A stretch of 64,000 nt of DNA from Methanomicrobiales archaeon. Lineage in GTDB: Archaea; Halobacteriota; Methanomicrobia; Methanomicrobiales; Methanospirillaceae. The translations under genes and the position numbers were made by a program. Shown here one piece after another: positions 1 through 15,413 of the stretch (positions are counted from its first letter, which is position 1; the number at the start of each line of letters is the position of its first letter). Where the stretch lies: positions 29,161 to 93,160 of the forward strand of contig JANYKQ010000058.1 of NCBI GenBank assembly GCA_025358115.1, read 5' to 3'. The notes beneath the pieces were generated by a model that saw nothing but the letters and a program-made list of their open reading frames with translations, did not search any database and was not told where the DNA came from.

Positions 1-219
1 ATCAAAGAGCTCAAGGAGCTCTGCGAAAAGATCGGCCTGAATCCCCGCGACCTGATCAATTTCAAAAAGCTTACCGCCCAGCCGGTACCAGACGAGCTCA
101 TGAAGTTCCCGGTCTATGCCTTTGACCGGCAGGGCTACTGCCTTACCGGCCCGGCTTTCGATATGGTCATGCACATCGATGAAGTTCGGGAAAAGATCGC
201 CGAGAATTCATCGGAATAA
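1..219 (+). CDS. 3' end of an unidentified protein (truncated by window start)
   Basis: Frame 1 is open from base 1 to the TAA at 217-219 (IKELKELCEKIGLNPRDLINFKKL...IAENSSE); family not recognised. Confidence 0.6.
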   Translation: MKELKELCEKIGLNPRDLINFKKLTAQPVPDELMKFPVYAFDRQGYCLTGPAFDMVMHIDEVREKIAENSSE

Positions 220-611
220 TTTCTCTTTTTCCCCTCCCCCCCGCTTCCCTTTTATTTATTCCGGATGCAAAACTCCCGGTTTTTTGCACGCTTTACAACG
301 GGTCGTGATATTCCCTGACCATTCCTGCATGATTGCCAGTGATACCTGAGAGCTGAACGAGTATTATTAATTCTTAAAAGTTAACTTAGCGATTGATTTC
401 ACTAAATTTATTTATTTTCCTCCGTAATGTATAATCTGACCATTCCCATTTGCGATCATAGCCATCCGACAGTTTGCACAGGATACCGACATGGTATCAA
501 AAGAAAGTGTCATCGGGCGTGCGGGTGATATAGTTCACGAAAAATAACCGTATCTCGTTATACAGGCTGATATATGACCATATCCGATCAAAAAAATAAG
601 AGACATTTCCA

Positions 612-1856
612 ATGACCTCACATTTTTTCCTGCTCAGCGGTCCGTTAACTCAGGAACGCCTATCCTGGATCGAGGAGAGTTTAAAATTTTTCTTCGTCCG
701 GCTGAACCCGGAGAATCTCCTGCACAGTTCAAAACCAAGAGATACTGTCTTTTCATTCTTCCTTACAGGTGATTCGCTGTACAGCCTCCAGAACCCGGAG
801 ACGATTTCTGTATGGGAGATCATACTCTCGATGCCATCAGTGAAGATCGTATGCGACTGTAATGAACTGGAATTACGGGGCATATCGATCGAGCGCCTGA
901 AGATGAAGAATCCCGAGCAGGTGATTGACCGGAACAGCCTTGCCTTGAATGGTCAGCCTTCCTTCTGGAAAGATGTGATGAAGTTCGCCCGGCAGCACGA
1001 ACAACCAGTTCCGAGCATGGTTGGCTACCTCCAGACGGAGTCGCCCTACATGCACCAGTCGGCCCATGCTGCACTTCTCTTTCTCACTGCCGGGGTGGAA
1101 TCCCATGCTTCGGCAGACCTGTACGCGTACCTTGACGGGGTCCATGTCGGTCACATTGGGCAGAATCCATCAGAGTGCGAAAATATCGGTACCGGTCTTG
1201 AGGCCGTACATGAAAAAGCCCAGAAAAAGGGGCTATCCTGCCAGATGATTGCCTGCGGGAGATGTGCCGCAGCCCGGGGTTACAGCACCTGGGATGGTGG
1301 CCAGGGTGTGGTAATTTCGACCTGCTCGATCAAGCCCTTTAAGATCCGGAGCCTCAGGGAGATGATAGGCCCGTTCGAACGTAACCATATCATCCTTTCA
1401 AAGGACAGCGCCTCCATCCAGTTAAAAAAAGAGGGGGCGTCCATTTCACAGCCCCAATCTGATAACAGTAGGAAACCCCCGATAACGATTTTTATCACCA
1501 GGAGTCCATATGGTACTGAAGAGGCTTTTGGCGCCATCTCCTTTGCAGTTGCCTGTGCCTATGAAGGGATCCAGACGCGTGTCATCCTCATCGAGGACGG
1601 TGTGTATATGCTCATGGGCACCCACAGGCCGGAGAAGGGTACTCACTTTTTCAACCTGCAGGAGGTTATCAATGCCATTGCGGGAAGCGCAAACATCCAG
1701 TTCTTTGCGTTCCAGCCCTCACTGAACCGGAGGGGAATTACCAAGAACGCAAAGATGAACGCTGTGCTTGATATTGGTACCCAGGAACTGAGCCAGCTCC
1801 TGTTCTATGCCCCGAATGGCGTGACGGCGAATCACCAGCGGGTGTTCTTCTTCTGA
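612..1856 (+). CDS. Multi-domain DsrE/DsrF (TusD/TusC)-like protein
   Basis: Middle segment ALLFLTAGVESHASADLYAYLDGV...MIACGRCAAARG is DsrE-like; C-terminal segment TIFITRSPYGTEEAFGAISFAVACAYEG...ILIEDGVYML is DsrF/TusC-like; the N-terminal segment ending IVCDCNELELRGI also looks DsrE-like. Confidence 0.7.
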   Translation: MTSHFFLLSGPLTQERLSWIEESLKFFFVRLNPENLLHSSKPRDTVFSFFLTGDSLYSLQNPETISVWEIILSMPSVKIVCDCNELELRGISIERLKMKNPEQVIDRNSLALNGQPSFWKDVMKFARQHEQPVPSMVGYLQTESPYMHQSAHAALLFLTAGVESHASADLYAYLDGVHVGHIGQNPSECENIGTGLEAVHEKAQKKGLSCQMIACGRCAAARGYSTWDGGQGVVISTCSIKPFKIRSLREMIGPFERNHIILSKDSASIQLKKEGASISQPQSDNSRKPPITIFITRSPYGTEEAFGAISFAVACAYEGIQTRVILIEDGVYMLMGTHRPEKGTHFFNLQEVINAIAGSANIQFFAFQPSLNRRGITKNAKMNAVLDIGTQELSQLLFYAPNGVTANHQRVFFF

Positions 1857-2006
1857 ATCTGTATTTTGTACGGGTTGGGGATTACGGAGACAGGATGATG
1901 CGGTATTATTCAATTGCACAAGCCAACCGGGTTCTCAAAGATCATCAGGACCCGCGCGGTGATGAATAACAATGGATAGCATTTATCTCAATAATGAAGC
2001 GGGTTT

Positions 2007-2819
2007 ATGTTGCAATCCCTGACAATAGATAAAAAAAAAGAACCCGGTACAGTAGCCGGTATTGACCTGGGCTCAACCCGCATCAAGGTCGTGATCTATA
2101 ACGGGTCTTCTTACTTCGCAAGGATGTCGGATGCTTCGTGGGATCCGGAGAAAACGGCTCTTGAACTGCTTGCCGAAACGAGCCGGGAAGCCGGACTATC
2201 CGCTCCCCCTTCCATCATCGCAACAACCGGGTACGGGCGCCGCTGTCTTTCCCATGCAACGCTGACGTTCACCGAGATCGCCACTCATGCCAAGGGGGCG
2301 TTTTACCTTGTACCGGAGTGCCGGTTTGTAGTGGATATAGGCGGACAGGATGCCAAGGGAATCCGTCTTTCATCCGATGGCCGGGTGGAGGACTTTGTGA
2401 TGAACGACAAGTGTGCTGCGGGGACGGGCCGGTTCCTTTCGGCAATGGGGCAGGCACTTGGGGTTCCGGTTGAGGACCTTGGCGCCTATGCAACCGGTGC
2501 GGAGCCGCACCGGATCAATGCGATGTGTACGGTCTTTGCCGAATCGGAAGTGATCAGCCTGATTCACCAGGGAGTGTCCCGGAATGCGATCATTGCCGGC
2601 CTTCACGCCTCCATCGCACGCCGGACCGCTTCGATGATTTCCTCCCTCCACCCGGAGCCGCTCATTGCGTTTACCGGGGGTGTCTCGCAGAATGCCGATA
2701 TTGTGCAGAGGCTGTCTGAAGAACTGGGCCATCCCGTCATCGTCCCGCACGATGCCGTCTATGCCGGGGCGATCGGGGCTGCGCTCCTGGCATGGGAGCA
2801 CCGTAGTGAATCAGGATAA
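2007..2819 (+). CDS. BadF/BadG/HgdC-type ATPase (2-hydroxyacyl-CoA dehydratase or double-cubane protein activator)
   Basis: AGIDLGSTRIKVVIY, VVDIGGQDAKGI, NDKCAAGTGRFL and FTGGVSQN motifs. Confidence 0.92.
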   Translation: MLQSLTIDKKKEPGTVAGIDLGSTRIKVVIYNGSSYFARMSDASWDPEKTALELLAETSREAGLSAPPSIIATTGYGRRCLSHATLTFTEIATHAKGAFYLVPECRFVVDIGGQDAKGIRLSSDGRVEDFVMNDKCAAGTGRFLSAMGQALGVPVEDLGAYATGAEPHRINAMCTVFAESEVISLIHQGVSRNAIIAGLHASIARRTASMISSLHPEPLIAFTGGVSQNADIVQRLSEELGHPVIVPHDAVYAGAIGAALLAWEHRSESG

Positions 2820-2828
2820 AAAAAAGAA

Positions 2829-4016
2829 TCAGGGTTTTTTGATCATCTCAAGGAATGCCTCGACCCGGGTCTTGATCTGACCTGTATCCCCTTGCGAGTA
2901 ATCGGTCTCTACCTGGAGGAGGGGGACGTCCCCGTGCTTTGCCAGGTAGTCCTTGAGAATACGTGACTCAACATTGTAGGTGTGGCAGCCAACCCAGGTG
3001 ATATCAACGACACCATCCGCGTGGTACTCTTTTGCGAGTTTTGCCAGAAGTTCGAGCCTGCCGGTATTCGGGCTCATGCAGGAGCAGGGTGTCTCGAGGT
3101 ACTTGTCGGCGATTGCATCGAGCGGTGAGTCTGTGGTTGCTACATCATGGAGGTACTGCTTCATACCGGAACAGTTCTCAATGTAGACGATGGCAGCGCC
3201 GGACTCCTCAATGATCCTGAGGACCTTCTCGGCACCTACACCCGTGGGGACACCGGTGACGATGATCCGCATTGCGGTCCTGGGCATTGCTCCTTCACCC
3301 CTTGCCTTCATCGCCTTGAGTTCAGCAATCAGGTCCTTGAGCTGCTGGTTGAAGGCAACCCTGTCGAACGTGAAGTTGCGGGCCCACATCACCTTGAGCA
3401 GGTCCAGGCCGGATAGCGGGGCCGGGATCGCAGTATTGAGGTGAGCAAGCTCCCGCATGAGTGCCCGCTGCTCGTTGAGCTCCTCGATCGCAGCCTTCAT
3501 TTTCTCATCGGTGATCTTGACCCCAAGCCTCTGTTCGATCTCCTGCTTGCAGCGGGCTACTTCCAAGCGCCAGAACGCTTTCTGTGATTCACCCTTTGCA
3601 CTCTGCGGAACTTCGAGGACCACCATGGGTTTGAACTTCTCCATGAGCTCGAACATCTTCTTCTTGCCATCACAGGTGGTCTCCCCTATGATGAACTCGG
3701 AGTTGTTGAAGAACGCACATTTCTCGGTGATTGCAAACCCGTAGGAGGATTTGATCAGCGGACAGAAATTCCGGGGCAGGTATTTTTCCCCGTCAGCGAT
3801 GGGCTCTTCCTTGGTGGCACAGAGCGTAACCGGTACTGCACCTGCGGCAACGATGAGTTCCTGGGGTGCGAACAAACAATAGAACCCGACGAACTTTTTG
3901 CCCTGGTCGCGTACGCTCTTGATCGCTGCTGATGCATTCGGAATTACCGAATCGAAATAGGTCATCTTTTCTGCTCTCATAGTAATTTCCTCATCGGTGA
4001 TTACAGGAATAATCAT
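2829..4016 (-). CDS. 2-hydroxyacyl-CoA dehydratase D-subunit (HgdB) family protein, double-cubane cluster protein-like
   Basis: Full-length HgdB-family architecture (GFYCLFAPQELIVAAGAVPVTLC, ETTCDGKKKMFELM, VDITWVGCHTYNVESRILKDYL); occurs singly, without a partner subunit or CoA-transferase nearby. Confidence 0.85.
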   Translation of the reverse strand: MIIPVITDEEITMRAEKMTYFDSVIPNASAAIKSVRDQGKKFVGFYCLFAPQELIVAAGAVPVTLCATKEEPIADGEKYLPRNFCPLIKSSYGFAITEKCAFFNNSEFIIGETTCDGKKKMFELMEKFKPMVVLEVPQSAKGESQKAFWRLEVARCKQEIEQRLGVKITDEKMKAAIEELNEQRALMRELAHLNTAIPAPLSGLDLLKVMWARNFTFDRVAFNQQLKDLIAELKAMKARGEGAMPRTAMRIIVTGVPTGVGAEKVLRIIEESGAAIVYIENCSGMKQYLHDVATTDSPLDAIADKYLETPCSCMSPNTGRLELLAKLAKEYHADGVVDITWVGCHTYNVESRILKDYLAKHGDVPLLQVETDYSQGDTGQIKTRVEAFLEMIKKP

Positions 4017-4019
4017 GAC

Positions 4020-4499
4020 TTAGTTCCCGGGGGTCTTTCCTGTTTCCCGGAGTATGATCTTTGCAGTTTCTTCTGCAACTTCTCCGGTGAATGCAATGCA
4101 TTGCCGGAGGTGTTCGGGGGATTTTAATACCATGCCATGGGTTAGGGTACGGCAGCAGAGGCAGCCGTGCCTGCGGGTGAAGAGTGCATGCAGTTCCCGG
4201 GCAAGGGCGAGACACCGGTCAATGGAAGGATCGCCGGGCTCCTTGCGCCCGAAGACCATCCCGAGTGCCATGACCCCCCCGGTAACGGCGCCACAGGCAC
4301 AGCCCGCACTGCCAATCCCGATGGGAAATCCTGAAGCCATCCGGACTATATCGTCAGGATAGTTCAGGGCGAACTCGTCATTGATGGTCTTTACGATCGC
4401 TTCCGAGCAGTAAAACTGCCCGGACCGGTAATACGCCTCAGCGACTTCCCTGACCCGGGCCGGGTCAACGGGCTTGTGCAGTTCCTTCACGCTTCTCAC
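4020..4499 (-). CDS. C_GCAxxG_C_C family protein
   Basis: FYCSEAIVKTIN...GIGSAGCACGAVTGGVMALGMVFGRKEPG...HGCLCC cysteine pattern. Confidence 0.85.
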   Translation of the reverse strand: MRSVKELHKPVDPARVREVAEAYYRSGQFYCSEAIVKTINDEFALNYPDDIVRMASGFPIGIGSAGCACGAVTGGVMALGMVFGRKEPGDPSIDRCLALARELHALFTRRHGCLCCRTLTHGMVLKSPEHLRQCIAFTGEVAEETAKIILRETGKTPGN

Positions 4500-4508
4500 C
4501 CGGGCTGC

Positions 4509-5033
4509 TTATTTCCGGAGCCGGACTTCTGCCTTGAGTGCGATCGCATGCTGGATCGTGAACATACCCATGCAACGCTTGAGGGCGTACTCTTTCAGGT
4601 CATGGACCTGGGCATCGGTTGCCTCGCCCGTGACCTCCATGATCACCCGGTACTCGCTGATGAGCGGGCTCTCACCAAGGTCGAACTGGGCGGTATAGTC
4701 AAGGTCTGCCTCGACTTTTGTTTTTACCGAGGTAAGCTGGATGTTTCTCATGGCGGCTTCGGTGACAAACGTGCTGGAGTAGCATGCGGCAAACCAGAAG
4801 AGGCCAAATGCCATGGGGCCGGGGCGGCTTCCGGGGCCGGCAAAGTTCGGGTGGCTTGCCTCCATCGTGTAGGTGCCATCCTTCACTTTGACCGTTGAGC
4901 GGAACTGCGGGCCGCCGTTTTCAAAGAGCCAGACACCCTCTATCTTTGCGGTGAATTTTGCTTCCTTGGGATCTTTCCTGATGGTCTCTTTGTAATCCTT
5001 GACCTGCTTGGTATCAATGTTGTTCAGGCTCAT
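4509..5033 (-). CDS. OsmC family protein
   Basis: OsmC-like: PGPMAFGLFWFAACYSSTFVTEAA with a second Cys in LKRCMGMFTI. Confidence 0.85.
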   Translation of the reverse strand: MSLNNIDTKQVKDYKETIRKDPKEAKFTAKIEGVWLFENGGPQFRSTVKVKDGTYTMEASHPNFAGPGSRPGPMAFGLFWFAACYSSTFVTEAAMRNIQLTSVKTKVEADLDYTAQFDLGESPLISEYRVIMEVTGEATDAQVHDLKEYALKRCMGMFTIQHAIALKAEVRLRK

Positions 5034-5306
5034 AAGTTAACACAATAAATTAATTTGATTGAATAGTTAAAATAATTTGGTAAATACATGGTGTATGAAG
5101 CCACGGGGGAGGTTAACATTTGCTCGATACATGGATTTGGATCCTTTCAGAAATTTGTGCTATCAGACGATTCATCACTTGAAAGAATCATTACGACATT
5201 TTTTTACCTTTACAAAAGCACCTTGTTAATGATAAGCAGTAAATGAGGAGCCGGGTATGGACAGACGAGACCTAGTACGAGGAACCTGCACAAGGGGCAA
5301 CAGGAA

Positions 5307-7217
5307 ATGGTAAAACGCTACCTCGAGCTCCGCTCCCTTGACGAAGCCCTCCGGCTGCTCACCTCATCTTTTGATCTTCCCCTCAGGACCGAGAAGGTCC
5401 CGGTCATGCAGTCGGCCGGGCGGGTCGTTGCCGAACCGGTCTATGCAAAATATTCTGTGCCCGAGGTAAACCTCTCCGCCATGGACGGTATTGCAGTCAG
5501 GAGCCGTGACACCCTTGGTGCTGGTGACCGGAACCCGGTGACCCTGGACCATTTCGCCCGGGTCAATACCGGCAATATTGTGCCTCCGGAGTTCGATGCA
5601 GTCATTATGATTGAGGATGTCTGGGAAAACGGTGACCGGTTCCAGGTGCGCCGGGCTGCCGCACCCTGGCAGCACGTCCGCCCCGCCGGGGAAGATATCA
5701 AGGAGAACCGCCTCGTGCTCCCCCGCGGTCACATCATCCGTCCATTCGATATCGGGGCACTGGCCACCTACGGGATCACAACGGTCGAGGTCCGGGCGGT
5801 ACGGGTTGGAATTATCCCGACAGGCAGCGAACTCGTCCCGCTCGGTGTCCGGCCGGGACCGGGACAGGTAGTGGAGAGCAACACCATCATGGCCCAGGTC
5901 TTTCTTGACCAGATGGGGGCACACTGCACCCGCCTTCCCATAGTGCAGGATGAACCCGACCTCATCCGGGCAGCACTCCGCCATGCGGTTAAAGAGAATG
6001 ACCTGGTGATCATCTCTGCGGGTTCTTCGGCCGGTACACGGGACTTCACCGAGAGTGTCATACGATCGCTGGGTGAACTGATCTTCCATGGCGTGGCAGT
6101 CCGGCCCGGTAAGCCCGTGATGCTGGGAAAGGTGGAGGGAACGCCGGTCCTTGGGCTGCCGGGCTACCCGCTCGCTGCCCAGACTGCACTGAGGGAATTT
6201 GCAGCCCCCCTGCTGGAATCCTGGGGATTTCCCCCGGCCCCCCGCTTTCCGGTCATGGCCCGTCTGGCGCAGCCACTCGTCTCGGATCCCGGGTTTGATG
6301 AGTTCATACCGGTCTTTGTCGGTCGTATCGGTTCGAACCTCTTTGCAACCCCGCACATAAAAAAGGCCGGTGTCCAGATGGCTACAGTCAAGGCCAATGG
6401 TTACACCCGTATCCCGGCACCGGTTGAAGGCTACGAGGCCGGTACGGAACTCGAAGTCCTTCTCACTACGGACCCGGGAAGTATCGAACGCATGCTCATC
6501 CTGACGGGCTCGCTGGATCCTTCGCTCGAAGAACTCGCCGGCTTGGCCCATGACGAGGGGTTGTTCATCCATGCCACCAACCCCGGCAATACGGGAGCAA
6601 TTCTTGCCCTCCGCTGCAACACCTGCCATGCAGCCCCGCTCAGCCTGCCGGCCCGGTCCCTGCTGACCACATTCCAGCCGTATATAAAATTCCTGGAGGC
6701 CGGTGACCTGGCCTTTATCCATATCGCCACCACCGAGATGGGTATTGTTTCTGAAGAAGGACTTGGGATAAAGGATCTCTCCCATGTCCGTTTCATCAAC
6801 ACCCGGCGGGAGTCGCCAGCCCGGATGGTTCTCGATGCCCTGCTGGCTACTGAGGGCATCGACCCGTCACAGGTCAACGGGTACCTGCAGGAAGTCCATG
6901 GTCCCCCGGCCGTGGCAGCTGCTGTCCGGAACGGGTTTGCCGATGCCGGGATGTGCACGTCGAGCATTGCCAGTGCAGCCGGGCTCCGGTTCGTGCCGGT
7001 TGCCCACGAGGATTATGAACTGGCAGTACGGCGGGAGATGCTGGAAGATTCCCGTATCCGTACCTTAGTCACGCTCATCCAGAGTCCCGCATATCGCCAG
7101 ATTCTTACCCGGATGGGCGGCTATGATGTCAGCCTCACCGGCACCATACGGGGGCTTAACGGCGAGAATATCTTAACCCCGTTATCCCCCGGAAGCCTGC
7201 CGGCCGGGTATATCTGA
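5307..7217 (+). CDS. moeA: Molybdopterin molybdenumtransferase (MoeA) fused to a C-terminal periplasmic-binding-like domain
   Basis: MoeA motifs VNLSAMDGIAVRS, IPTGSEL, SAGSSAGTRDFT, RPGKPVMLGKVEGTPVLGLPGYPLAA; C-terminal ~250 aa beginning LILTGSLDPSLEELAGL is LysR-substrate/PBP-like. Confidence 0.92.
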   Translation: MVKRYLELRSLDEALRLLTSSFDLPLRTEKVPVMQSAGRVVAEPVYAKYSVPEVNLSAMDGIAVRSRDTLGAGDRNPVTLDHFARVNTGNIVPPEFDAVIMIEDVWENGDRFQVRRAAAPWQHVRPAGEDIKENRLVLPRGHIIRPFDIGALATYGITTVEVRAVRVGIIPTGSELVPLGVRPGPGQVVESNTIMAQVFLDQMGAHCTRLPIVQDEPDLIRAALRHAVKENDLVIISAGSSAGTRDFTESVIRSLGELIFHGVAVRPGKPVMLGKVEGTPVLGLPGYPLAAQTALREFAAPLLESWGFPPAPRFPVMARLAQPLVSDPGFDEFIPVFVGRIGSNLFATPHIKKAGVQMATVKANGYTRIPAPVEGYEAGTELEVLLTTDPGSIERMLILTGSLDPSLEELAGLAHDEGLFIHATNPGNTGAILALRCNTCHAAPLSLPARSLLTTFQPYIKFLEAGDLAFIHIATTEMGIVSEEGLGIKDLSHVRFINTRRESPARMVLDALLATEGIDPSQVNGYLQEVHGPPAVAAAVRNGFADAGMCTSSIASAAGLRFVPVAHEDYELAVRREMLEDSRIRTLVTLIQSPAYRQILTRMGGYDVSLTGTIRGLNGENILTPLSPGSLPAGYI

Positions 7218-7312
7218 ACTTTTTTTATCCCCTTCCCCGTGTGTAGACCCGGGGGATACTTACATTACTTTTTCTGAATTATAAAAAAAAAAGACCCTGT
7301 TAAAGGGATTGA

Positions 7313-8566
7313 TCACTTCTTGACAAACGGGTTGAAGACATTCTCGTAGATCATGTCGCTGCCGGTGTTGTGGAGCCGGCCACGCTCGGTCTTCTCCTCT
7401 GCATAGGCAAGGAGCGGGAGTTCCATGCTGACCCCCGGGACATGGCCGAACATCTTCTCGAGCTCGACCTGCTGGGCGTGCATGAAGAGTGCATTGGGGA
7501 TTTCCGCGGGGCAGACTTCCTCGCACTGGCCGCAGTTTACGCAGGAATCTGCGATATGAGCGAACCGGATCAGGTGGAACATGAAGCTGACGGGCAGCTC
7601 GCCGGGCGGGACATAGGCCGGGTTCTTGGTCGTGCAGTCAACGCAGTAACAGATCGGGCAGGCCTCAATACACCCGTAGCACTTGACACAGCGTGCAGTC
7701 TCGGCCATGATCTTCTTTAAGCGATCCTTGCCCTCGCCAAGTGCTTCGAAATCGTGTTTTCGCCACTTGTCGCCGAGCTTGAACATCGCACCTTCGACTT
7801 TGGCCCGGATCTCAAGACCCTTGGGAATTGCTGGCGCGGTTGCCATGATGCCCTTCTTGACGGCACCGTCAACAAGGTTTGCTCCCTTCTCGGAGCAGAC
7901 TTCAACAAAGGTAGCTTTACCCGCCTTGTCGCCTATGACTCCCCAGTTACCACAGGCAAGGTCAGCCTGGCGTGGGATCTTCATCTTGCAGCGGCGGCAG
8001 TTGCTGCGCCGGCCATAGCCTGCCTCTTCGAGCTCGTCAACGGAGATACCCTTGTGGCCTCCCTCAAACTCGATGATGAACTGGCCCTTGTCGATCTCTT
8101 CCTTGTGAACCGTTTCCGGATCAACGCCATACTTTTCACGGATCATCTTGCGGGCAACGACCGGGCTGACCGATCCTCCGCAGTTGACCCCGATCATGAT
8201 GATGTTGTCGAGGTTGATCTGCTTGCGCTTGGCCAGTTCGTAGAACGCCATTGCATCGCAGCCCTTGACGGTAACACCGATCTTCTTGTCCTGTGCCCCG
8301 TCAAGGTATTTCTTGACCAGTTTGGGCAGCAGGAGCGTTCCGCAGTGGAGCGAACCGGCAGTCCTGACAAGATCATTGGGGTCCGTGATGATGACCGGTT
8401 TTGCATCGTAGAGGTCAACACCCTTGGTCACTGCAAGGACAGCGTCAACCATCTTGGATTCAAGGGCATACTTCCAGAGGGAAGTTACTGCGCCCCCAAG
8501 CTCGGCCTTCTTCTGTATCTCGGCATCGTTGGTCCATGCGTAAAGCATATCGCCTTTCTTTGTCAT
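7313..8566 (-). CDS. fdhB: F420-type formate dehydrogenase subunit beta (copy 1)
   Basis: FrhB/FdhB family sequence with ferredoxin motifs CVKCYGCIEACPICYC and CVNCGQCEEVCP; directly downstream of fdhA. Confidence 0.93.
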   Translation of the reverse strand: MTKKGDMLYAWTNDAEIQKKAELGGAVTSLWKYALESKMVDAVLAVTKGVDLYDAKPVIITDPNDLVRTAGSLHCGTLLLPKLVKKYLDGAQDKKIGVTVKGCDAMAFYELAKRKQINLDNIIMIGVNCGGSVSPVVARKMIREKYGVDPETVHKEEIDKGQFIIEFEGGHKGISVDELEEAGYGRRSNCRRCKMKIPRQADLACGNWGVIGDKAGKATFVEVCSEKGANLVDGAVKKGIMATAPAIPKGLEIRAKVEGAMFKLGDKWRKHDFEALGEGKDRLKKIMAETARCVKCYGCIEACPICYCVDCTTKNPAYVPPGELPVSFMFHLIRFAHIADSCVNCGQCEEVCPAEIPNALFMHAQQVELEKMFGHVPGVSMELPLLAYAEEKTERGRLHNTGSDMIYENVFNPFVKK

Positions 8567-8568
8567 GT

Positions 8569-10638
8569 TCAGGCCTCCTTGATCTTCTCAATCTTGACAG
8601 CACAGTGCTTGAGTTCCGGCATCTTGGAGAGCGGATCGAGTGCGGTGTTGGTGAGGTCGTTTGCGCCATGCTCAAAGTGCATGGGCATGAAGATCACTTT
8701 CGGGGCCACATCGTCGGTCACGCGTGCTATGGCAATGGATTCGCCACGGCGGCTTGTTACCTTGACCTTCTCGTATGGCTTGATCCCAAGTTCCTTTGCA
8801 TCCAGCGTGTTCATCTGCATGTAGTTTTCCGGCACATCGTTGTGCAGGGTCGGGCTCCGGTCGGTCTGGGTCCTGGTGTGATAGTGGAAGATGATACGGC
8901 CGGTCATCATGGTGAACGGGTACTCTGCGTCAGCAACTTCTGCGGGCGGACGGTACTCGAGGCCGAACATGGTTCCCTTGCCATCGGCAGCGGAGAACTT
9001 TCCTATGTGGAGGATTGGAGTTCCCGGGTGCTCGATGGTCGGGCAGGGCCAGTGGACCGATTCGGGTTTCTCCATCTTCTCGTAGGTTACACCGAACTGA
9101 CCCGGAGTGACTGCGCGCATGTCGTCCCAGACATCTTTCGCGGTCTTCCAGTCAAAGCCCTTGAGGCCCATCTTCTTTGCGAGCAGGCTGATGATTTCCC
9201 AGTCGTACTTCGACTCGCCGGGACCGTTGACGGCCTTCCTTACACGGTTGACACGGCGCTCGCCGCTGGTGAATGTGCCGTCCTTCTCGGCAAAGCAGGT
9301 GCCGGGCAGGACAACGTCTGCATATTCGCAGCTCTCATTCCAGTAAATATCCTGGATAACGAGGAAGTCGAGCTTGTCAAGGGATCTCCTGACGTGGTTC
9401 GAATCGGGGTAGGAAACCACGGGGTTCAGGCCGAGGATATACATCGCCTTGATCGGGTCACCGCACTGGGTGATCTGTTCGGTTAAGGTGACCCCATACC
9501 AGTCGGGCAGGGAACCTTCTTTCATGAACCATGCCTTCTCCATCTTGGCACGGTTCTCGGGGACGGCAACTGCCTGGTAGCCTGAGAAGACGTTCGGGTA
9601 TGCACCCATGTCGCAGGCGCCCTGCACATTGTTCTGTCCCCTGAGCGGGTTGACACCGACACCGGGGCGTCCGACATTGCCGGTGAGCAGCGCGAGGTTA
9701 CCCATGGACCGGACATTGTCGGTACCGGTGGTTAACTCGGTGATGCCGAGGCAGTAGATGATGACCGCGTTCTTTGCATTTGCATACTGGCGGGCAAACT
9801 CCTGGACTGTCGCGAGCGGGACACCGTGGATCTTTTCACAGTCGGCATAGTTCTCGACGGTCTTCTTGAGGTCCTCGAAACCTTTTGTCCGTTCCTTGAT
9901 GTACTCCTTGTCCTCAAGGCCTTCCTTGATGATCCAGTACATCATGGAGTTTGCAAGTGCAATGTGGGTCGACGGGTTAAACCGGATGAACTTGTCAGCA
10001 AGACGTGCAGTCGGGCTGAACCGGGGGTCAACAACAATGATCGGAGTGCCCTTCTTCTTGGCCTGCATGACGCGGCGGGCAGCCAGCGGGTGGGCCTCAA
10101 CGGCGTTGGAACCCCACATGACGATGAGGTCAGAGTTCAGGACATCTTCGAACGGGTTGGTGGCAGCACCGGAACCGAACGAGAGCGAGAGACCGGCAAC
10201 GGACGGGCCGTGGCAGATACGGGCACAGTTGTCAACGTTATTGGTCTGGAAAGCCACACGGGCCCACTTCTGCAGTGCGTAGCAGTCCTCATTGACGGTT
10301 CGGCACGAGGTGTGGAAACCCAGCGCCCGGGGGCCGCCCTGTTTGTGAGCCTCTGAGAATTTCTGCGTAATCAGATCAATGGCTTCGTCCCACGAGGCTT
10401 CCTCGAACTTGTCGCCCTTCTTGATGAGGGGCTTGGTCAGCCGGCCGGGCTTCTGGACCGTTTCCCAGCAGGTCGTACCCTTAGGGCAGAGCTTGCCTTC
10501 GTTGATCGGAGACCGCTTGTACGGTTCGACACCAACGAGTTCATTCCCGTTGGATACGAGGTTCAGGCCGCAGCCAACCCCGCAGTAGGGACAGGTCGTT
10601 GCTGTGTACTTTAGAGAATCCTTATTTAGTTCGCTCAT
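8569..10638 (-). CDS. fdhA: Formate dehydrogenase subunit alpha (copy 1), Cys form
   Basis: CPYCGVGCGLNLV 4Fe-4S motif; molybdopterin oxidoreductase with DNCARICHGPSVAGL (Cys at the expected Sec/Cys position). Confidence 0.95.
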   Translation of the reverse strand: MSELNKDSLKYTATTCPYCGVGCGLNLVSNGNELVGVEPYKRSPINEGKLCPKGTTCWETVQKPGRLTKPLIKKGDKFEEASWDEAIDLITQKFSEAHKQGGPRALGFHTSCRTVNEDCYALQKWARVAFQTNNVDNCARICHGPSVAGLSLSFGSGAATNPFEDVLNSDLIVMWGSNAVEAHPLAARRVMQAKKKGTPIIVVDPRFSPTARLADKFIRFNPSTHIALANSMMYWIIKEGLEDKEYIKERTKGFEDLKKTVENYADCEKIHGVPLATVQEFARQYANAKNAVIIYCLGITELTTGTDNVRSMGNLALLTGNVGRPGVGVNPLRGQNNVQGACDMGAYPNVFSGYQAVAVPENRAKMEKAWFMKEGSLPDWYGVTLTEQITQCGDPIKAMYILGLNPVVSYPDSNHVRRSLDKLDFLVIQDIYWNESCEYADVVLPGTCFAEKDGTFTSGERRVNRVRKAVNGPGESKYDWEIISLLAKKMGLKGFDWKTAKDVWDDMRAVTPGQFGVTYEKMEKPESVHWPCPTIEHPGTPILHIGKFSAADGKGTMFGLEYRPPAEVADAEYPFTMMTGRIIFHYHTRTQTDRSPTLHNDVPENYMQMNTLDAKELGIKPYEKVKVTSRRGESIAIARVTDDVAPKVIFMPMHFEHGANDLTNTALDPLSKMPELKHCAVKIEKIKEA

Positions 10639-12189: not shown

Positions 12190-13341
12190 TTAATTGGTGT
12201 AAGCTGACTTCCCCAGCTTGGGTTCGAATAACCGGTCTTCTTCCGTACGGATTGCATGGGAGAAGAGGGCCAGTGGAATCTCTGACGGGCACAGCTCTTC
12301 GCACTGCCCGCAGTTGATACACGAGTCAGCGATGTGGGCAAACCGGCGCAGGTGGAACATCTGGTCTGCCGGAAGCACTCCCGGGCGGATCATGAGCGAG
12401 GGCTGCTTGAACTTGTCAGCAAGGGTGACACAGACCGGGCACTTGTCGATACATGAGTAGCATTTCATGCAGCGGCTGGTCTCCTTTGCAATGGTCTCCC
12501 AGAGAACAGGTGCGAGTGCCTCGAAATCGTGCTTTCGCCACTTGTCACCGAGCTTGTACATTGCGCCTTCGACCTTGGCACGGATCTCGATCCCTTTGGG
12601 ATTTGCCGGTTCCGTGGAAAGTTTCTTTGCGGCAACCGCTTTTGAGAGGAGGGTTGCACCCTTCTCGGAACAGATCTCAACAAAGGTCGCCTTTCCGGCC
12701 TTGTCTCCGATAACTCCCCAGTTCCCGCAGGCAAGGTCTGCCTGGCGGGGGATCTTTACCTTGCAGCGGCGGCAGTTGGACCTGCGGCCATAGCCGGCCT
12801 CTTCGAGTTCATCGACAGAGATACCCTTGTGGCCTCCCTCGTACTCGATGATGAACTGGCCCTTGTCGATCTCTTCTTTGGTTACCTTGTTCGGGTCAAC
12901 ACCATACTTGTCGGTGATCATCCTGCGGGCCGTGACCGGGCTTACCGATCCTCCGCAGTTGACACCGATCATGACGATGTTGTCCAGGTTTACCAGCTTG
13001 CGTTTTGCAAGTTCAAGGACGCCCATCATGTCGCAGCCCTTGACAACCATGCCGATCTTCTTACCGGCCAGCTTGGGCGCGTACTCTGTCACCAGTTTCG
13101 AGAGAAGGATCGTTCCGCAGTGGAGCGAACCGGCGCACTGGTCGAGAGCCTTTGGGTCGGTAACGATAACCGGAACTGCGTCGTACAGGTCGACACCCCG
13201 GGTAACGGCAATCACTGCATCAACGGTCTTGCTCTCGAGTGCATACTTCAGCAGCTCGGTAACCGCACCGCCGCATTCTGCCTTCTTTGCCAGGTTGGCA
13301 TCGTTGGTCCATGCATAGAGCATTTCGCCTTTCTTTGCCAT
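12190..13341 (-). CDS. fdhB: F420-type formate dehydrogenase subunit beta (copy 2)
   Basis: Collinear paralog of 7313..8566 with long identical stretches (GGHKGISVDELEEAGYGRRSNCRRCK). Confidence 0.93.
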   Translation of the reverse strand: MAKKGEMLYAWTNDANLAKKAECGGAVTELLKYALESKTVDAVIAVTRGVDLYDAVPVIVTDPKALDQCAGSLHCGTILLSKLVTEYAPKLAGKKIGMVVKGCDMMGVLELAKRKLVNLDNIVMIGVNCGGSVSPVTARRMITDKYGVDPNKVTKEEIDKGQFIIEYEGGHKGISVDELEEAGYGRRSNCRRCKVKIPRQADLACGNWGVIGDKAGKATFVEICSEKGATLLSKAVAAKKLSTEPANPKGIEIRAKVEGAMYKLGDKWRKHDFEALAPVLWETIAKETSRCMKCYSCIDKCPVCVTLADKFKQPSLMIRPGVLPADQMFHLRRFAHIADSCINCGQCEELCPSEIPLALFSHAIRTEEDRLFEPKLGKSAYTN

Positions 13342-13346
13342 GGTGT

Positions 13347-15413
13347 TCAGGCCTCCTTGATCTTTTCAACCGATACAGCACAGTGCTTGAGCTCAGGCAT
13401 CTTGGAGAGCGGGTCGAGGGCGGTATTGGTGAGGTTGTTCACACCCTGGGCAAAGTGCATTGCCATGAACAACACCTTCGGGGCAACATCGTCAGTCACG
13501 CGTGCAGTGGTGATGGTCTCGCCACGGCGGCTCTTCACCTTGATCTTCTCGCCATCCAGAATACCCATGCTCTTTGCATCTTCAGTATTGATCTGGATGT
13601 AGGACTCGGGCACTTCATAGTGCAGAACCGCACAGCGATCCGTCTGAGTCAGGGTGTGGTAGTGGAAGAGCACACGCCCGGTCATAAGGGTGAACGGGTA
13701 TTGTGCATCAGCAACTTCTGCCGGTTGTTTGTACTCGAGACCAAACATGGTCCCCTTGCCATCGGCTGCAGAGAACTTTCCAATGTGGAGGATCGGAGTT
13801 CCCGGGTGCTCGATGGTCGGGCAGGGCCAGTGGACCGATTCGGGCTTCTCCATCTTCTCGTAGGTTACACCGAACTGGCCCGGGGTGACTGAACGCATAT
13901 CGTCCCAGACATCCTTTGCCGTCTTCCAGTCAAAACCCTTGAGGCCCATCTTCTTTGCCAGCAGGCCGATGATCTCCCAGTCGTACTTCGATTCGCCGGG
14001 ACCATCGACTGCCTTCCTTACACGGTTGACACGGCGTTCACCGCTGGTGAAGGTGCCGTCTTTCTCGGCAAAGCAGGTGCCGGGCAGGACTACATCTGCG
14101 TATTCGCAGCTCTCGGTCCAGTAGATATCCTGGATAACGAGGAAGTCGAGTTTGTCAAGCGACCGCTTGACGTGGTTCGAGTCGGGGTAGGAGACAACCG
14201 GGTTCAGGCCAAGGATATACATCGCCTTGATCGGGTCGCCGCACTGGGTGATCTGCTCGGTTAACGTCACACCATACCAGTCGGGCAGGGACCCTTCCTT
14301 CATGAACCAGGCTTTCTCCATCTTGGCACGGTTCTCGGCAACCGCTACTGCCTGGTAACCGGAGAAGACGTTCGGGTATGCACCCATGTCGCAGGCGCCC
14401 TGCACATTGTTCTGTCCACGGAGCGGGTTGACACCGACACCAGGACGGCCGACATTGCCGGTGAGCAGTGCGAGGTTCCCCATGGACCGGACATTGTCCG
14501 TACCGGTGGTTAACTCGGTGATGCCGAGGCAATAGATGATGACTGCATTCTTTGCCTTGGCATACTGGCGGGCAAACGTCTTGACGGTCTCGAGCGGGAC
14601 ACCGTGGATCTTTTCGCAGTCGGCATAGTTCTCAACTGTCTTTTTCAGGTCCTCAAAGCCTTTTGTCCGTTCCTTGATGTATTCCTTGTCCTCAAGGCCT
14701 TCCTTGATGATCCAGTACATCATGGAGTTCGCAAGCGCAATGTGAGTCGACGGGGTGAACCGGATCCACTTGTCGGCAAGCCGTGCAGTTGCACTGAACC
14801 GCGGGTCAACCACGACAATCGGAATACCCTTCATCTTGGCCTGCATGACGCGGCGGCCGGCAAGCGGGTGGGCCTCGACTGCATTGGAGCCCCACATGAC
14901 GATCAGGTCAGAGTTCAGGACATCCTCGAACGGGTTGGTGGCGGCACCGGAACCAAACGAGAGGGAGAGACCGGCAACAGACGGGCCGTGGCAGATACGC
15001 GCACAGTTGTCAACATTGTTGGTCTGGAACGCAACACGGGCCCACTTCTGCAATGCGTAGCAGTCCTCGTTGACCGTACGGCACGAGGTATGGAAACCCA
15101 GGGCACGGGGACCGAGCTTGTCGGAGGTCTCCTTGAACTTCTTTGCAACCAGGGTTATGGCTTCATCCCAGGAGGCTTTCTCGAACTTATCGTTCTTTTT
15201 TATCAGGGGATGGGTGAGCCGGTCGGGCTTCTGGACAGATTCCCAGCAGCTTGCACCCTTCGGGCAGAGCTTGCCTTCGTTCACCGGGCTGCGCTTGTAT
15301 GGTTCGACACCAACGAGTTTTCCGTCGCTGACTACGAGGTTGAGACCACAGCCCACCCCGCAGTACGGACAAGTCGTCGGTACATACTTAAGAGTACTCG
15401 AGTTATCTTGCAT
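13347..15413 (-). CDS. fdhA: Formate dehydrogenase subunit alpha (copy 2), Cys form
   Basis: Collinear paralog of 8569..10638, identical over long central blocks. Confidence 0.95.
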   Translation of the reverse strand: MQDNSSTLKYVPTTCPYCGVGCGLNLVVSDGKLVGVEPYKRSPVNEGKLCPKGASCWESVQKPDRLTHPLIKKNDKFEKASWDEAITLVAKKFKETSDKLGPRALGFHTSCRTVNEDCYALQKWARVAFQTNNVDNCARICHGPSVAGLSLSFGSGAATNPFEDVLNSDLIVMWGSNAVEAHPLAGRRVMQAKMKGIPIVVVDPRFSATARLADKWIRFTPSTHIALANSMMYWIIKEGLEDKEYIKERTKGFEDLKKTVENYADCEKIHGVPLETVKTFARQYAKAKNAVIIYCLGITELTTGTDNVRSMGNLALLTGNVGRPGVGVNPLRGQNNVQGACDMGAYPNVFSGYQAVAVAENRAKMEKAWFMKEGSLPDWYGVTLTEQITQCGDPIKAMYILGLNPVVSYPDSNHVKRSLDKLDFLVIQDIYWTESCEYADVVLPGTCFAEKDGTFTSGERRVNRVRKAVDGPGESKYDWEIIGLLAKKMGLKGFDWKTAKDVWDDMRSVTPGQFGVTYEKMEKPESVHWPCPTIEHPGTPILHIGKFSAADGKGTMFGLEYKQPAEVADAQYPFTLMTGRVLFHYHTLTQTDRCAVLHYEVPESYIQINTEDAKSMGILDGEKIKVKSRRGETITTARVTDDVAPKVLFMAMHFAQGVNNLTNTALDPLSKMPELKHCAVSVEKIKEA

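Follow-up and report, generated by a model that had tools for sequence, protein, structure and literature searches.

A known enzyme, the double-cubane cluster protein (DCCP), is here placed inside a sulfur-handling gene island of a methanogen. In the window, the whole stretch of 64,000 nucleotides that was analyzed, the DCCP gene adjoins the convergent gene of its cognate ATPase (activase) and shares a strand with genes for an OsmC-like protein and a C_GCAxxG_C_C redox protein (CGC). The host, which had been taken for a methanogen from the DNA alone, indeed belongs to the methanogen genus Methanoregula.

Gene layout of the locus

An earlier sequence-only reading had described a minus-strand run of OsmC, C_GCAxxG_C_C and HgdB-family genes with a BadF-type ATPase gene converging on it, and all four open reading frames and their families were recovered: the OsmC-like protein with Cys84 and Cys154 (4509..5033, minus strand; PF02566), CGC with eight cysteines (4020..4499, minus strand; PF09719, 100 bits, and TIGR01909, 111 bits), the HgdB-family protein identified below as DCCP (2829..3980, minus strand; HGD-D, PF06050; ~383 aa counted from the conserved start) and the DCCP reductase-type activase of the ASKHA/BadF family (2007..2819, plus strand; BcrAD_BadFG, PF01869, and TIGR00241, 230 bits). 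The HgdB-family gene had, however, been started at 4016, leaving a gap of 3 nt to the CGC gene; its start is probably the ATG at 3980, residue 13 of the longer reading frame, because nearly all orthologs begin there (MRAEKM/MRPEKM), and the gap then becomes ~39 nt. The motif GAGG lies ~9 nt upstream of this ATG. An in-frame TGA in the DCCP gene of one congener (G020), considered as a selenocysteine codon, was rejected, since the reading frame is open over its full length from the conserved ATG and the TGA thus lies upstream of the start.

On the plus strand, the activase gene stands in line with a gene whose 414-aa product contains at least two DsrE-like domains (612..1856; PF02635, 60 bits over two stretches), which is the first intact gene of the run ending in the activase; two gene runs therefore meet at the ends of the DCCP and activase genes. 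The same strand carries the 3' part of c7 (1..219), a conserved 190-aa island gene that begins left of the window, and a probable decayed tusA remnant (437..545), a broken-frame match to the TusA C-terminus. A probable remnant of the small gene c31 (1880..1978, plus strand) was assigned from a weak tblastn match (39% over c31 residues 82-114, E 0.002) at the position expected from relatives, where c31 lies between the DsrE gene and the activase gene. The AlphaFold model of the 414-aa DsrE protein, built from two sequences, reached a pLDDT of 42 and was not used. A relative of this protein is encoded in 33 of 39 Methanoregula genomes, several of which have a second copy at 55-58% elsewhere. Further right in the window, two tandem pairs of genes for FdhB-like and molybdopterin FdhA-like proteins were observed (7313-10638 and 12190-15413, minus strand).

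Identity of the double-cubane cluster protein and its activase

Against the NCBIfam equivalog NF040772 (cut-off 350), the HgdB-family protein reaches 497 bits, whereas dehydratase and benzoyl-CoA reductase models give 120 bits or less, every one below its own cut-off. Its closest PDB sequences are the DCCP chains of 7YYL and 6ENO, and its AlphaFold (AF2) model (pLDDT 92) superimposes on 6ENO/7YZM with a TM score of 0.94, versus 0.87 for BzdN and HadC. Cysteines 47, 85, 115, 282, 311/313 and 344 (395-aa numbering) align with those of both DCCP and BzdN, the benzoyl-CoA reductase subunit in which six cysteines bind an [8Fe-9S] cluster (PMC11971306). Thus a score above the family cut-off, six ligand cysteines, a single subunit and a cognate ASKHA activase occur together, and the protein is a DCCP, with the cluster itself predicted from the ligand cysteines. 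The family score, fold and cysteines sustain the earlier proposal of a single-subunit double-cubane protein acting with its activase as an ATP-driven low-potential reductase, and the fold and cysteine comparison that had been suggested as a check came out in its favor.

That the protein might instead be an acyl-CoA dehydratase-like enzyme of amino-acid fermentation has virtually no probability left. The HGD-D Pfam family is common to both kinds of enzyme, but the window protein groups with DCCPs and apart from HadC on the tree, as the earlier reading had required, and it has both of the extra cluster cysteines missing in HadC, a dehydratase subunit with Pro and Ala at the equivalents of Cys47 and Cys282. 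Moreover, the genome assembly, which is 70% complete, encodes a single HGD-D protein and no HgdA-type partner subunit. Family score, tree and cysteines rule this identity out.

Compared with the DCCP/DCCP-R system of Carboxydothermus hydrogenoformans (6ENO, 7YYL, 7YZM), the window protein has the same fold, the six cysteines and the organization as a single subunit with its own activase, but it shares only ~36% identity and falls into a separate DCCP subfamily on the tree. The window activase gene converges on the DCCP gene, whereas in most of the bacterial loci examined the two are adjacent and encoded on a single strand. Another [8Fe-9S]-binding homolog with the same six cysteines is BzdN, from class I benzoyl-CoA reductase (8S02), which acts on CoA esters in partnership with a further subunit, BzdO; a BzdO-like second subunit is absent from the window locus.

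Among the PDB relatives of the activase are DCCP-R (7YYL) and the activator of 2-hydroxyisocaproyl-CoA dehydratase (4EHT). Cys136 and Cys174 of the activase lie in the family-conserved contexts NDKCAAGTGRF and CTVFAESE, and we take them to be candidate [4Fe-4S] ligands.

The sulfur island

Most of the island falls outside the window, to its left, or has been deleted from the window's genome. To the left on the same contig are a formylmethanofuran dehydrogenase-type gene run (read from motifs and order), a methyltransferase gene, c11, the genes for a cysteine desulfurase of the TIGR01977 type, for a rubredoxin-like protein and for a small ferredoxin protein resembling sulfite reductase, and c7. 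Matches to an "FdhA-like" neighbor were reassigned, by motifs and gene order, to FwdB, encoded in the formylmethanofuran dehydrogenase operon. The corresponding locus of relatives L025-L027 and L029 encodes two YedE halves (TIGR04112), a TusA/YeeD-like protein, a DsrE protein, the TIGR01977-type cysteine desulfurase, rubredoxin and the small sulfite-reductase-like protein; the YedE halves and TusA/YeeD-like gene sit between c7 and the DsrE gene, and the small genes c25 and c31 follow the latter.

Alignment (blastn) with the locus of a DCCP-less relative (L179, genome G014) pairs window positions 1-414 with 5096-5520 and 437-1856 with 6731-8157. Relative to G014, the window thus has a deletion between 414 and 437 that removed YedEa, YedEb and the 5' portion of tusA, and the activase and DCCP genes occupy the place of c25 and c31. 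A PF04143 transporter search of the window's assembly returned no match. The relatives' split YedE halves and TusA resemble the YeeE/YeeD thiosulfate uptake system (PMC11073785), matching the TsuA and TsuB models weakly and sub-threshold to both, and are absent from the window's genome.

None of c7, c11, c25 and c31 gave a family match above a cut-off. The 190-aa c7 (MTKQSEYMEAFFGV...; G000:C43:28807-29379 on the window's own contig, window 1-219) is conserved with the island across two families. By eye, c25 (in the region with c31, L179 8171-8772 and L027 7999-8600) is TusA-like but has no cysteine at the usual place; in the run of another family of the order described below, c25 was found and c31 was not.

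Distribution among relatives

Conservation of the OsmC-CGC-DCCP trio in related genomes, an earlier expectation, held among Methanoregula genomes. In a survey of 39 genomes of the genus, partly incomplete and, being related, not independent, the island OsmC was present in 15 and a close DCCP in 10, all within those 15; five genomes have OsmC without DCCP, and none has DCCP without OsmC. This arrangement is not due to chance (hypergeometric probability ~5e-6, with shared ancestry ignored).

The further claim that OsmC and CGC are dedicated partners of DCCP did not survive. In five congeners (G014, G028, G030, G033 and G038), OsmC-CGC holds the same place facing the DsrE run with neither DCCP nor activase between; all five keep YedE-TusA and DsrE, and genome-wide searches of G014 and G033 found no close activase, only a distant homolog of ~30% identity. 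In a different family of the order (four genomes, L076-L079), genes for cysteine desulfurase, YedEa, YedEb, TusA, c25 and OsmC stand together, followed by CGC and/or a sulfite-reductase-like gene, with no DCCP in the run; in L078 and L079 all eight genes are co-directional. In G046, from another genus of the same family as the window's host, DCCP and activase genes converge near fwd and rubredoxin genes, with OsmC ~17 kb away. Taken together, the five DCCP-less islands, the other family's run and G046 indicate that OsmC and CGC are island genes and not DCCP subunits, and the best reading is that DCCP is an accessory module of the island, lost or absent in several congeners. Its history within the genus takes at least three changes on the island tree, four by fewest changes, each of which may be a gain or a loss.

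Among congeners with readable loci, DCCP occurs without the YedE-TusA-c25-c31 unit in four genomes (the window's own, G000, and G010, G015 and G025) and together with it in four others (G006, G017, G020 and G036). No congener with a readable locus lacks both, in numbers too small for a claim of complementarity. Several loci show irregularities of their own. In G025 (L033; G025:C55:261-1368), the match to the DCCP gene is broken into two or three frame-shifted pieces, through decay or assembly error; in G015 (L030), CGC matches in two overlapping frames (8203-8717) and ~4 kb of unrelated genes separate DCCP from its activase.

Origin and a second recruitment

In a tree of 88 sequences, built by a quick method with SH-aLRT support only, the Methanoregula-type DCCPs form a clade (100) nested with those of Heliorestis, UBA5324 and CTSoil Bacillota (SH-aLRT 99); other methanogen DCCPs and C. 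hydrogenoformans DCCP fall elsewhere. The nearest bacterial sequences, from Heliorestis acidaminivorans (65% identity) and Bacillota UBA5324 (59%), belong to the same subfamily as the window DCCP; beside them the OsmC-CGC pair was not detected, and the activase gene, where present, lies upstream in the same orientation. An ancestral member of this lineage may have gained DCCP and activase from a bacterial, Bacillota-like source, and the pair would have been set where two converging sulfur-trafficking runs of the island meet.

In G010, a second DCCP-activase pair, of the C. hydrogenoformans clade, lies between OsmC and CGC (L031 6835-12534), and the rest of that genome gave no close match to the usual activase. 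No other single observation points as strongly to a functional link as this recruitment of two DCCP subfamilies by one operon. In the same locus, the DsrE-domain gene is split into two open reading frames.

Proposed function and alternative explanations

The neighborhood alone cannot name the substrate of DCCP, and a sulfur species is the leading hypothesis. We consider it about an even call that DCCP serves as an accessory low-potential reductase for small sulfur species handled by the island's sulfane-sulfur relay, a substrate class suggested by the neighboring genes. By homology, the activase dimer would hold a [4Fe-4S] cluster, take an electron from a low-potential donor, perhaps ferredoxin, and, hydrolyzing ATP, push it into the [8Fe-9S] cluster of DCCP. 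DCCP would then reduce a small molecule, possibly thiosulfate, polysulfide, sulfur or a related S-oxy/sulfane compound, while the DsrE/TusA relay may carry products or precursors of the reaction, in an order that we can only propose, and OsmC and CGC may manage thiol or persulfide redox in the same island. For YeeD, the electron route for thiosulfate decomposition has been given as unknown (PMC11073785); within this island, an ATP-driven reductase could provide such a route.

Bacterial neighborhoods bear on this proposal from both sides. A YedF, EF2568-type desulfurase, SelD, SaoD, DUF3343-like or LysR-cluster gene lies within 10 kb in 21 of 76 bacterial DCCP loci, a count with no background rate; the neighbor clusters were named via NCBIfam representatives, except the DUF3343-like one, which had no NCBIfam match and was assigned by eye. 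The Heliorestis DCCP has a YedF C-terminal match 2.5 kb away, and Lin et al. report that, in STRING, an activase and a subunit of 2-hydroxyglutaryl-CoA dehydratase are linked to YedE/YedF (PMC5322559). The other 55 loci are without the listed sulfur and selenium genes, and many of them adjoin corrinoid methyltransferase genes. The loss of YedE and TusA in the window's genome also speaks against the sulfur reading and indicates that DCCP can be retained without the uptake half of the island; the ~17 kb between the DCCP-activase pair and OsmC in G046 points the same way.

The last two observations, and the absence of DCCP from five otherwise intact islands, could also mean that DCCP is a passenger module, in the island by accident of insertion and reducing something unrelated. 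We consider this unlikely, given that the operon in G010 took up members of two different DCCP subfamilies, that the island OsmC accompanies DCCP in 10 of 10 DCCP genomes of the genus and that sulfur or selenium genes are frequent neighbors of DCCP in bacteria. A role in selenium metabolism has been put forward for those bacterial DCCPs that lie near YedE, YedF, SelD and selenocysteine lyase genes; SelD, YedF and a selenium-associated LysR regulator are among the bacterial neighbors, and YedE was proposed as a selenium transporter (PMC5322559). Those neighborhoods likewise combine YedE, TusA, DsrE-type and EF2568-type desulfurase genes with a DCCP-type pair, but Methanoregula is without SelD, and its island adds OsmC, CGC and the small sulfite-reductase-like protein. 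SelD was above cut-off in none of the 39 Methanoregula genomes, with positive controls detected, and sulfur is therefore favored over selenium; together with the lack of a clear selenium phenotype upon yedE deletion in Methanococcus maripaludis (PMC11097638), this renders a selenium role here very improbable.

Detoxification of a small nitrogen compound (hydrazine, azide, hydroxylamine or one derived from NO) would fit the ability of DCCP to reduce acetylene, hydrazine and azide, activities of unclear relevance (PMC11971306), and the nearest bacterial relative adjoins genes for a hybrid-cluster protein and a NirB-like protein. It is distinctly unlikely in Methanoregula, as nitrogen-oxide genes were not found in the conserved island and the Heliorestis locus also has the YedF-like gene. 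We likewise give little credence to a role in reactivating or reducing some corrinoid or organometallic intermediate. MtaA-like methyltransferase, corrinoid protein, AcsV and Sao genes do occur in one set of bacterial DCCP loci, and DCCP has been noted in clusters of type I methyltransferases for which a part in methyl-selenium or methyl-sulfur metabolism was proposed (PMC10418091), but the Methanoregula island showed no such corrinoid or methyltransferase gene.

Few proteins have a cluster that equals those of nitrogenase in size; DCCP is among them, and a 2025 paper describes its biological function as unknown (PMC11971306). A bolder version of the sulfur reading, possible though doubtful, is that DCCP is the reductant-delivering enzyme of sulfane-sulfur/thiosulfate assimilation in methanogens, an ATP-driven, nitrogenase-like reductase of inorganic sulfur; if true, this would give DCCP a physiological role. 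Congeners that lack exactly the DCCP-activase pair, in a group without SelD, provide a natural comparison set and make the substrate class testable.
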